A stretch of DNA of 42,663 bases, taken from positions 16,719 to 59,381 of the forward strand of contig JAOZKN010000006.1 in assembly GCA_029935315.1 (NCBI GenBank), given 5' to 3'. Of the stretch, positions 32,307 to 36,378 are shown piece by piece. Origin of the DNA: Desulfocapsa sp. GTDB taxonomy: Bacteria > Desulfobacterota > Desulfobulbia > Desulfobulbales > Desulfocapsaceae. Every line of letters starts with the position of its first letter. Position 1 is the first letter of the stretch. Below the pieces are notes generated by a model. It was not told the DNA's origin and did no database searches. It worked only from the letters and a program-made list of their open reading frames with translations. The position numbers and the translations under genes were made by a program.

Positions 32307-33776
32307 ATGACCAGCAATCAAAATCAGCCACAACAGCCCATTCTTTCAGTCGGGTGCAGCACATTTTGCAGAATCACACAGGATAAAAATCTTCAATTCA
32401 CTCCACAGCCACAAACTATTCCCTTAACAATGATCAATAAAACTGCTTCCAATATTCCTCTGGCAGAACGTATGCGACCGCAATCTCTTGATGATTTTGT
32501 AGGACAAAAAGAGATCATGGGAGAAGGCAAGTTGCTGCAGAGCGTACTTGAATCCGGCACCCTGCCGTCACTTATCCTCTGGGGTCCGCCGGGGACTGGT
32601 AAAACGACCCTTGCAAAAATCCTGGCACGCGCTACCACTGCCGATTTCGTCTATTTTTCTGCTGTGCTTTCTGGCGTCAAAGAAGTTCGAAAAATTGTAA
32701 CCCAGGCTGAAAAGCGAAGAGAAAAAGAACAAAGAGGAACTATTTTCTTTATTGATGAAATCCATCGTTTCAACAAAAGCCAGCAGGATGCATTTCTGCC
32801 CCATGTGGAAAGTGGGCTGTTTACCCTCATAGGGGCCACCACTGAGAACCCGTCTTTTATGGTTATCGCTCCTCTGCTTTCCCGTTGTAAAGTTCTTGTT
32901 TTACACCCCTTCTGCAAAGAAGAATTAGCCAATATTTTCAAAAAGGCCCTGAAGGATGATGAAAACGGGCTTGGAACCTATGATTTTTCCTTTACTGATG
33001 AGAGTCTTGAGTTGCTCAGTAGCTATGCGGATGGAGATGCGAGAAAAGGATTAAACACCCTGGATATTGCCGCGACCCTGCTGTTACATAGAAATAAATC
33101 TGCAATAGAGAAACCTGAAAACCTGATCACCGTTGCTGATATACAGGAAGCAGCGCAGCAATCAACACTGCGTTATGATAAAGATGGTGATGAACATTAC
33201 AATACAATATCTGCTCTCCATAAGAGTCTCCGTGATTCTGATCCCGATGGCAGCCTGTACTGGCTCTACAGAATGCTTGAGTCCGGTGAAGACCCACTTT
33301 ATATTTGCAGACGCCTGATTCGCTTTGCCTCTGAAGATGTCGGACTGGCTGACCCCCAGGCATTGACACACACCATTTCCTGCAGGGACGCCTACCATAC
33401 TCTGGGCTTACCTGAAGGGAAACTTGCCCTTGCCCAGGCAGTTGTCTACCTTGCCACAGCCCCTAAAAGCAACGCTATCTACAGTGCAGAAAGAAATGTT
33501 CTTCAATGTATTCGAAAATCTGGTACATTAGCCGTTCCGATGCATCTCAGAAACGCCCCGACAAAATTGATGAAAGAACTCGATTACGGCAAGGGCTATA
33601 AATATGCTCACGATACAGATGAGGCTCTGGTTGCACAGGATCATTTACCCGGTGCCATAAAAGAACAGCATTTTTACTCACCAACAAACAGGGGCTACGA
33701 ATCCCGGATAAAAGACCGCCTGCAAAAATGGCGTATTATTCTTCAACAGCGACAAAAACATGCAAAAAAAAATTAA
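32307..33776 (+). CDS. rarA: Replication-associated recombination protein A (RarA/MgsA AAA ATPase)
   Basis: The 489-residue product is a RarA-type clamp-loader-like ATPase that acts at stalled replication forks. The AAA core shows PLAERMRPQSLDDFVGQ, Walker A GPPGTGKTT, Walker B FIDEIHRFNKSQQDAFLP, sensor GATTENPSF and YADGDARKGLN. The C-terminal tetramerisation domain follows with DPDGSLYWLYRMLESGEDP and FASEDVGLADPQAL. The first 41 residues are an unusual Gln- and Thr-rich extension; the Met at 32430 (MINKTASNIPLAERMRP) fits the family start better. Neither start has a clear ribosome binding site, so the longer form is listed and the start is uncertain. It overlaps the next gene by 17 nt. 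Confidence 0.92.
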   Translation: MTSNQNQPQQPILSVGCSTFCRITQDKNLQFTPQPQTIPLTMINKTASNIPLAERMRPQSLDDFVGQKEIMGEGKLLQSVLESGTLPSLILWGPPGTGKTTLAKILARATTADFVYFSAVLSGVKEVRKIVTQAEKRREKEQRGTIFFIDEIHRFNKSQQDAFLPHVESGLFTLIGATTENPSFMVIAPLLSRCKVLVLHPFCKEELANIFKKALKDDENGLGTYDFSFTDESLELLSSYADGDARKGLNTLDIAATLLLHRNKSAIEKPENLITVADIQEAAQQSTLRYDKDGDEHYNTISALHKSLRDSDPDGSLYWLYRMLESGEDPLYICRRLIRFASEDVGLADPQALTHTISCRDAYHTLGLPEGKLALAQAVVYLATAPKSNAIYSAERNVLQCIRKSGTLAVPMHLRNAPTKLMKELDYGKGYKYAHDTDEALVAQDHLPGAIKEQHFYSPTNRGYESRIKDRLQKWRIILQQRQKHAKKN

Positions 33777-35376
33777 TGTAGTTTTCAATGTACCTGTAGT
33801 ATTGATGCTTGCCATTCTCTACCTCTTTGCTTCCCATTGCTCTGCGCTTGCCTCGCAAACCGAACCACTACTGATTTTCTACTCCGATAATGTTCAGGGC
33901 GAAACTGAGCCCTGTGGCTGAAAATCTAATCAAATGGGCGGTCTGTCCAAAAAAATATTTCAGATTAAGAGCCTCAGTAAAGAAAACACAGCTAACAGCC
34001 TGCTGGTTGACAGCGGGAATCTTTTGTTTAAACAAACGAATATTGCAGATGGTCCAAGCCAGGCAAGGCTGGCGGCCAGCACAATTGTTGAAGTTTACAA
34101 GACAATTGGCTTCGATGCCGTGGCGGTAGGTCCTCTGGATCTGGCCGGGGGAGTACTTTTTCTGCAACAGTCTAAAAATGACAATTTCCCCTGGATCTCT
34201 GCAAATATTTTTAACGAAAATGAACAGTTACTCTTTAAACCATTTGTCACAAAAACAATTCAGGATCGTGAAATTACCGTCTTTGCGCTAAGTGGAGCGC
34301 CCAAACGCGCTCTCTCTGATGTATACATAAAACCCTGGGAAGATATCTTGCCATCGCTACTACAACGTATCAGAAAGAAAAACAGAAATGGACTTATCGT
34401 TCTCCTTTCTTCCCTGTCCGACAAAGAAAACCAGGTAATAGCAAAAGAATACAAAGACATTCACGTACTGGTAAGTGCCCACCCGAGAAAAGGAAATGTT
34501 GCTCCCCAACTTATTAACAATACCCTTCTCACACAGACTGCTAAACAAGGAAAACACCAGGGACTCCTTGAAATCACATTTGGTTCCTCTCGTCTGTGGG
34601 GACAAAACAGTCAGAAAAAACTTGCCGATTTACAAAACAGCCTTGGCTCCATAAACTGGCAACTGCAAAGGCTTCTTAAAAAATCTAAACCTTCCGGCAA
34701 TGCTGCAAAATACGAAAAAACCATCACTCGCCTTGAAGATGAGAAGAAATCTCTTGCTGCTGAAATAAATACCATGAAGGATCAAGCGGATGAAGAAAGA
34801 AATGGAGGAACCAAAGAGGACAATTTCACCTATCGCTTTATAGGTCTGAAGAAAAACATGCCAAATGATCAGCGAACAGACGAGAAGATCCATACATTGA
34901 ACCAGGAAGTCAGAAAACTGAACGCCAGGCTGAAGCAGGCAAAGACAGCAAACAGGCATATAACGGGAGCAAAATCATCCCTTTCCCTGATTGGTCACAA
35001 TGCTTGCGGAGAATGCCATGAAAAACAGAAGATTTTCTGGGAATCAACCCGCCACGCAAAGGCTTATAATACCCTGCTGACAAAAAACAAAAATCTGGAC
35101 ACAAACTGTTTACCCTGTCACTTAAGCATGGAAATTACAAAGGGAGCATTTGCGCCCCTTGCTCCGAATATGATACTATCCTATCCTGAAAAATTGCAGT
35201 CTGTTGGCTGTGAGACCTGCCATGGCATAGGAAATAAACACAGTACTGATCCTGAACAATTCAAACTGGTTCTGACACCAGCAAGCGATATCTGCTTAAC
35301 CTGTCACACGGATGAACATGACGACAATTTTATATATAAAGAAAAACTTGAGAAAGTTTCATGTCCGGCGGGATAA
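33760..35376 (+). CDS. Predicted selenoprotein: exported 5'-nucleotidase-like, multihaem c-type protein (in-frame UGA)
   Basis: Read through one in-frame TGA (codon 54, 33919-33921), this gives a continuous 538-residue protein. A signal peptide (MQKKINVVFNV then an apolar run ending SALAS) is followed by FYSDNVQGETEPCGUKSNQM and GGLSKK. That corresponds to the EPCGC motif of a metallophosphatase-like domain known in Desulfobacterota, with Sec in place of its second Cys. DSGNLLFKQ and VAVGPLDLAGGVLFL continue that domain. A coiled coil (about 285-395) leads to four CxxCH haem sites at Cys416, 450, 484 and 512. The chain ends at Cys535-Pro-Ala-Gly. The ATG overlaps rarA by 17 nt. It is likely a periplasmic redox protein; its reaction is unknown. 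Confidence 0.85.
33919..33966 (+). promoter_or_regulatory. Bacterial SECIS-like hairpin with in-frame UGA
   Basis: After the TGA at 33919-33921 come 18 bases, then the loop GGTCT (33940-33944), closed by TGGGC (33935-33939) with GTCCA (33945-33949), five pairs including one wobble. The loop sequence and the 18-base spacing equal those I recall for E. coli fdhF. AATCT (33923-33927) and AGATT (33962-33966) could add a lower stem. Confidence 0.8.
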
Positions 35377-35382
35377 AAAAAA

Positions 35383-35411
35383 AGGCGCTTTCGATTACAT
35401 CGAAAACGCCT
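35383..35411 (-). terminator. Intrinsic terminator after ppaC
   Basis: AGGCGCTTTCGAT (35383-35395) pairs with ATCGAAAACGCCT (35399-35411) with one mismatch and a three-base loop. On the minus strand a run of nine U follows, so it ends the ppaC transcript. In the plus direction it lies just after the selenoprotein stop but lacks a U tract. Confidence 0.88.
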
Positions 35412-35442
35412 CAAAGCTACTGCAATCCAGATGTTTTGTTAA

Positions 35443-36378
35443 TTAACAACCAAAAGCTTTCTGGAGATTTGGTACAGTCTGCTTCTTACGACTCATCATT
35501 CCATCAATCCACATGGAAGAAGTAGCAGCATCAAGCTTTCCATCGAATGCACCTTCAATCAACGCTTCATCGTCAGAAATAACAACAAGTTGTGTACCTT
35601 CTTTTACAACATCAGTAAGCATAAGAAGAACAGTGTGACGTCCGTCAGCTTTTACTTCTTTAACAGCATTCAGAAGATCTTCACGAATATCAGCAACCTG
35701 GTCGAGAGTAGCAAGCTCAAGCTGACCACAACCAACTTTGTTTCCATTCATATCGAAATCTTTGTAGTCACGGAAAACGAGGTCTTTTGCAGGAACGCCT
35801 GCAACAGAAGACTTGGCTTTCAGCATATCCATGAACAGGCCGTCGGTATCATCTACACCGGCAGTACCTTTAAGCTCAGCAACAGCAACCTTATCATCTT
35901 CGGTACAGGTGGGTGATTTAAAGTTAACGGTATCAGAAAGAATCGCTGCAAGCATTCCGCCGGCAACATCCTTAGGAATAGCAACACCGGCATCTTTGAA
36001 CATTTTGTTCAAAACGGTTCCGGTACAGCCAACAGGTTCCACACGGGCAAGAATCGGGTTGTTAGTTGTAACGTCACCAATTTTGTGATGATCAACGATT
36101 GCTACAACTTCAGCATCGCCAAGATTGGCAGGACCCTGTCCTATATCACTAAAATCAACCAGAGCAACAGTTTTGCCAGCACAATCCATCATCTCTTCGG
36201 GAGCGGTAAGACCAAATTTCTCCAGAACAACGGTGGACTCAGGATTAAGATCGGCAAGAGTTGACTGCATACATGCCTTCGCATCCTGTCCCTGTGCATT
36301 CATAAGGGTAGCAAGAGCGATTGAAGCGGTCACTGAATCGGTATCTGGGTTAGAGTGACCGGTTACGTAAATTGTCAT
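35443..36378 (-). CDS. ppaC: Manganese-dependent inorganic pyrophosphatase (class II)
   Basis: The 311-residue protein is a DHH-family class II pyrophosphatase. It shows VTGHSNPDTDSVTASIALA with metal ligands, ALVDFSDIGQGP, IVDHHKIGD with the DHH motif, the metal-binding Asp in ILSDTVNFKSPT, and the C-terminal SRKKQ that grips pyrophosphate. The enzyme hydrolyses pyrophosphate in the cytosol, which drives ATP-dependent sulfate activation in sulfate reducers and biosynthesis generally. Strong signals suggest high expression: GGAGG upstream of the ATG, a near-consensus promoter and a clear terminator. It is a single-gene unit facing the selenoprotein gene. Confidence 0.95.
   Translation of the reverse strand: MTIYVTGHSNPDTDSVTASIALATLMNAQGQDAKACMQSTLADLNPESTVVLEKFGLTAPEEMMDCAGKTVALVDFSDIGQGPANLGDAEVVAIVDHHKIGDVTTNNPILARVEPVGCTGTVLNKMFKDAGVAIPKDVAGGMLAAILSDTVNFKSPTCTEDDKVAVAELKGTAGVDDTDGLFMDMLKAKSSVAGVPAKDLVFRDYKDFDMNGNKVGCGQLELATLDQVADIREDLLNAVKEVKADGRHTVLLMLTDVVKEGTQLVVISDDEALIEGAFDGKLDAATSSMWIDGMMSRKKQTVPNLQKAFGC

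Follow-up and report, generated by a model that had tools for sequence, protein, structure and literature searches.

A predicted tetrahaem selenoprotein of the UshA-like PCG(U/C) family in Desulfocapsa has lost most metal ligands of its phosphatase-like domain

An in-frame TGA lies between two open segments in the window (the whole stretch of Desulfocapsa sp. DNA analysed here, 42,663 nucleotides), which raises the question of whether it ends a gene or encodes selenocysteine (Sec), and what kind of protein would carry that residue. A plain list of open reading frames begins the gene at 33934, that is, after the UGA; the case illustrates how standard gene calling truncates such genes at this codon. 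When this single TGA is read as Sec, the segments on either side of it join in one frame, as a preliminary description had proposed, and translation gives a protein of 538 amino acids, closed by TAA, in which Sec54 is the sole internal TGA and is surrounded by FYSDNVQGETEPCG-U-KSNQMGGLSKK. The other parts of that description could be located as well: the N terminus reads as a signal peptide, a coiled coil after the UGA is predicted by the structural model, and four CxxCH haem sites lie at residues 416, 450, 484 and 512 (positions 35005, 35107, 35209 and 35293). The AlphaFold2 model, built with 63 relatives (mean pLDDT 87.5), has a globular N-terminal domain, long helices across residues 284-402 and a C-terminal haem region. 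The features of the gene are:

33760..35376 (+), UshA-like PCGU selenoprotein, whole frame (translation; profile match)
33760..33852 (+), predicted signal peptide, residues 1-31, cleaved probably after ...CSALA (inspection of the sequence; the model has a helix at 7-27)
33868..34599 (+), UshA-like domain of 5'-nucleotidase fold, residues 37-280, most metal ligands lost (profile matches to 3ivd, UshA, CD73 and SoxB; Foldseek; ligand counts)
33919..33921 (+), UGA codon for Sec54, motif EPCG-U (translation and comparison with relatives)
33935..33949 (+), SECIS hairpin UGGGC-GGUCU-GUCCA, loop 33940-33944 (five pairs compared among relatives)
34609..34965 (+), predicted coiled-coil region, residues 284-402 (model helices 284-309, 315-349 and 371-402)
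34993..35331 (+), cytochrome c554-like tetrahaem domain, residues 412-524 (PF13435, 42.4 bits, cut-off 20.8)

The preliminary description took the gene for a probable new selenoprotein, in a family with no described one, and here it was mistaken. The read-through protein matches NCBIfam NF041198 (UshA_like_PCGU, 'UshA-like (seleno)protein'), a curated equivalog, with 502.6 bits (cut-off 275), over residues 15-527 of the protein and positions 2-519 of the 519 in the profile. A UshA-like protein (COG0737) with the motif CxU was among the selenoprotein families of a 2008 ocean-sampling study (PMC2398784), and it recurs in the family lists of reviews from 2022 and 2026 (PMC9312934, PMC13188914). 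The gene is a member of this known family, catalogued since at least 2008. It has the PCGU motif, the UshA-like domain and the haem sites in common with NF041198 and differs from it in nothing substantial; it is an ordinary though divergent member, of the Desulfocapsa group. To the related N-terminal domain of NF049981 (UshA_like_Sel_2), whose motif is CxxU, the match is weak (32 bits), well under the cut-off of 140. We found no function stated for the family, and literature searches on its occurrence in Desulfocapsa and cable bacteria were unproductive.

Relatives bear directly on the reading of the UGA. Among the 146 genomes of the order, 145 have a family match at E <= 0.001 and 125 have one above the cut-off, and nearly all strong matches carry exactly one internal TGA; the gene itself is ordinary within its order. 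The relatives with names belong to Desulfocapsa and other Desulfobulbales. Across the relatives the TGA falls at PCG[U/C]. The proposal that the UGA sits at the second Cys of EPCGC agrees with this, since the corresponding residue of homologues is Sec or Cys, and not part of a degraded segment with neither. For the tree and the ligand counts below we used a comparison set of 63 proteins. The tree, for which the Sec residue was masked, requires three Sec/Cys changes, with the Cys rows nested within larger Sec groups. As a separate observation, six genomes (G056, G084, G093, G061, G134 and G145) have TAA or TAG besides TGA in the matched stretch, hinting at a recent loss of the C-terminal part.

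The hairpin, with its GGUCU loop 18 nt after the UGA as had been described and a stem UGGGC/GUCCA, presumably resembles that of E. coli fdhF. It is intact, with all five pairs kept, in 54 of 54 Sec genes versus 2 of 9 Cys genes; the SECIS is kept in Sec genes and mostly not in Cys genes, the pattern by which a bacterial selenoprotein is recognized. Two of six hairpin pairs have changed on both sides in relatives; in the relative L066 a pair of silent substitutions turned C-G into A-U. In Sec genes, codons 59-62 vary hardly at all at the third base (entropy 0-0.7 bits). Most of the remaining conserved codons lie at 1.1-1.95 bits and a few are lower (codons 53, 439 and 483, at 0.83-0.95), so that the freeze of silent sites is restricted to the hairpin codons. 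Shuffle counts for the hairpin are not probabilities, because the sequences share kinship. The folding energy of the single sequence is unremarkable (z -0.28), and the hairpin owes its significance to the comparison with relatives, not to energy alone. An Rfam scan of the window gave no match. A heuristic scan of both its strands for an in-frame TGA with a SECIS-like hairpin returned two sites only, and the open frame that follows the TGA at 33919 is by far the longer.

The genome of the window has genes for the decoding machinery. We found selA (604 bits), selB, which runs into a contig end, and two selD genes (C222:23797-24735 and C225:6520-7443). Both selD genes carry an in-frame TGA of their own. 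A first search for tRNA-Sec gave only weak matches, assigned by ARAGORN to tRNAs for Ser, Arg, Glu and Leu. The gene (selC) is complete in six of six relatives of the genus that were tested, and its flanks correspond in the window's genome to the ends of contigs C97 and C85; C85:1-71 is the 5' part of selC with the UCA anticodon, cut by the contig end. The suspicion that tRNA-Sec is absent was rejected on this finding, and a genome without Sec machinery, which would have spoken against the preliminary description, is not what we see.

Going by this comparative evidence, the UGA at 33919 almost certainly encodes Sec. That it is a real stop, whether through a pseudogene, a sequencing error or two separate proteins, can be dismissed as next to impossible: the unremarkable folding of the single hairpin sequence would fit it, but the TGA recurs in dozens of genera, where the remaining frame is intact, the SECIS is conserved and Sec exchanges with Cys.

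The surroundings of the gene separate Sec from Cys forms. Its neighbours in the window are:

32307..33776 (+), rarA-like AAA ATPase gene, conserved upstream neighbour, whose 3' end overlaps the 5' end of the UshA-like gene by 17 nt
35443..36378 (-), manganese-dependent inorganic pyrophosphatase gene (ppaC), conserved convergent neighbour (NF003877, 378.4 bits)

This order, rarA, UshA-like gene and convergent ppaC, is kept at most Sec loci, across families, and at none of the 10 Cys loci. The pattern points to orthology among the Sec genes and, outside cable bacteria, to paralogy of the Cys genes. Around these paralogues the genes vary (a sigma-54 regulator, NAD(P)H-hydrate dehydratase, PAS or chemotaxis proteins), and no partner recurs. 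Neither rarA nor ppaC suggests a function or a redox role. At three loci (L060, L074 and L078) about 4-6 kb of extra DNA lies between the UshA-like gene and ppaC, which elsewhere adjoin. Between the convergent genes of the window we spotted by eye a strong inverted repeat (35379-35414; AGGCG...TTTCGAT/ATCGAAA...CGCCT), probably a terminator common to both.

What the protein does depends in the first place on its phosphatase-like half. The fold is that of a 5'-nucleotidase: Foldseek aligns the N-terminal domain to CD73 and UshA with E of about 2e-16 and 6e-16, at a TM of about 0.4 over ~280 columns, as only this half aligns. The ligand positions (DxH, GD, GNH and late His), mapped by profile alignment with 3ivd and UshA, are mostly altered. 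Among the 63 proteins, Asp 44 of DxH is kept in 44 and His 46 in 11, Asp 87 of GD in 3, and Asn 125 and His 126 of GNH in 0 and 7, respectively; the three late His are kept in 0, 1 and 5, with a column match less certain than for GNH. Each protein retains 0-3 of the 8 ligands, and in the window protein the first five are N, Q, N, P and L, unlike in a UshA-type 5'-nucleotidase. The earlier label 'phosphatase-like' therefore stands for the fold and fails for most of the metal ligands. Because of this loss the protein, as judged from alignment, is very probably not a working metallophosphatase.

Known proteins of the same fold differ in the corresponding ways. UshA, CD73 and 3ivd share the N-terminal domain, whereas the window protein has CG[U/C], lacks most of the metal ligands, and has a coiled coil and haem domain as its C-terminal half instead of a nucleotide-binding domain. 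SoxB (TIGR04486; PDB 2wdc, 4uwq) is weakly similar by profile over the same domain (34.6 bits, cut-off 550), and its metal ligands are not conserved in the window protein. The C-terminal haem domain is like cytochrome c554 (PF13435; PDB 1bvb), but is only one part of a larger, apparently secreted selenoprotein. With its CxxCH sites, which are conserved among relatives, and its PF13435 match, the predicted exported protein would have the features of a multihaem c-type cytochrome. For a selenoprotein of that kind there is a precedent in ExtKL of Geobacter (NF040886; PMC5877670), with a proposed role in selenite reduction; it is set apart as a separate family by the listing in PMC13188914, not by sequence comparison.

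It is quite improbable that metal-dependent phosphatase or nucleotidase activity persists in the protein and is tuned or regulated by Sec. The fold, the first Asp of DxH in 44 of the 63 proteins and the three ligands of some members would agree with such an enzyme; the near or complete disappearance of the GNH and GD residues, and the substitutions in the window protein itself, do not.

Somewhat better placed, though still unlikely, is a metalloenzyme that holds a metal or metalloid through Sec54 and Cys52; a soft-ligand site would then stand where the dimetal site was lost, and the haems would relay its electrons. Other enzymes have Sec as a ligand of Mo or Ni. An invariant C-G-U/C loop follows directly after the strand that bore the first ligands, and the gene is retained where Cys substitutes for Sec, both as such a site would allow. 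Against it, the N-terminal domain has no other conserved Cys or His (besides C54, the invariant residues are Gly, Leu, Trp and Ser), and C52 is Arg in one relative (L067).

Since the ligands are largely gone throughout the family, the pseudo-phosphatase scaffold appears likelier to serve a redox role than to have phosphatase activity, and the lost ligands speak for the former against the name-derived 'nucleotidase'. The best explanation is probably that the gene is a member of NF041198 in which Sec is decoded, and that its product is an exported tetrahaem pseudo-phosphatase with a Cys-Sec redox centre. SelB would decode the UGA at 33919 through the hairpin within the coding sequence; the product would be exported and bear four c-type haems; the 5'-nucleotidase-like domain would be a pseudo-phosphatase; and Cys52-Gly-Sec54 would form a periplasmic thiol/selenol redox centre, as we infer. 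The Cys-Sec pair may then exchange electrons with the tetrahaem domain, and thence with other periplasmic cytochromes; the transfer from Sec to haem we hold to be an even call.

Some relatives vary this arrangement. Five proteins from the taxonomic family of the window's genome (L065-L069) have no haem domain, and four of them have an extra motif residue (CGGU, CGSU or RGGU), with Arg replacing Cys in the RGGU form of L067. Three (L065, L066 and L068) adjoin rarA and ppaC, and L067 and L069 adjoin ppaC. The haem-less CGGU relatives L066 and L068 score 254.9 and 246.9 bits against NF041198, below its cut-off, and 62.2 and 53.6 bits against NF049981, under its cut-off too. Because these five lack haems and one has Arg for Cys, both the haems and the Cys partner are dispensable in some members, which speaks against extending the redox mechanism to the whole family.

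Cable bacteria offer a further variant. In three of their genomes (genus g49) selA is absent, and it is present in the other eleven genomes tested; these assemblies are 92-95% complete, so that incompleteness might account for a missing selA once, but hardly three times. The sole copy of the gene in the three is a Cys form. The seven selA-bearing genomes that have a Cys copy also retain a TGA copy. The adjacent downstream gene in cable bacteria encodes a membrane-anchored multihaem c-type cytochrome, in keeping with the redox reading:

L076:4442-5764, L084:4506-5873 and L087:4520-5905 (-), cytochrome after the Cys form in cable bacteria, with two or three CxxCH plus CxxxCH-like sites

The three cytochromes are 45-53% alike, and outside cable bacteria tblastn found this neighbour, among the loci searched, only in Desulfobulbus sp. 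F5 (L167).

While the selenoprotein family was known already, the loss of most metal ligands in its phosphatase-like half is new, as is the retention of the protein, in Cys form, by cable bacteria without selA. Tentatively, a dimetal hydrolytic site could have given way in this family to a selenium/sulfur redox centre connected with the tetrahaem tail, serving a general periplasmic function of Desulfobulbales that is important enough for cable bacteria without selA to keep the Cys form; the haem-less CGGU and RGGU proteins would be a further variant of the centre. Cable bacteria, with selA missing, Cys in place of Sec and a neighbouring cytochrome gene, are a natural comparison for the role of selenium.
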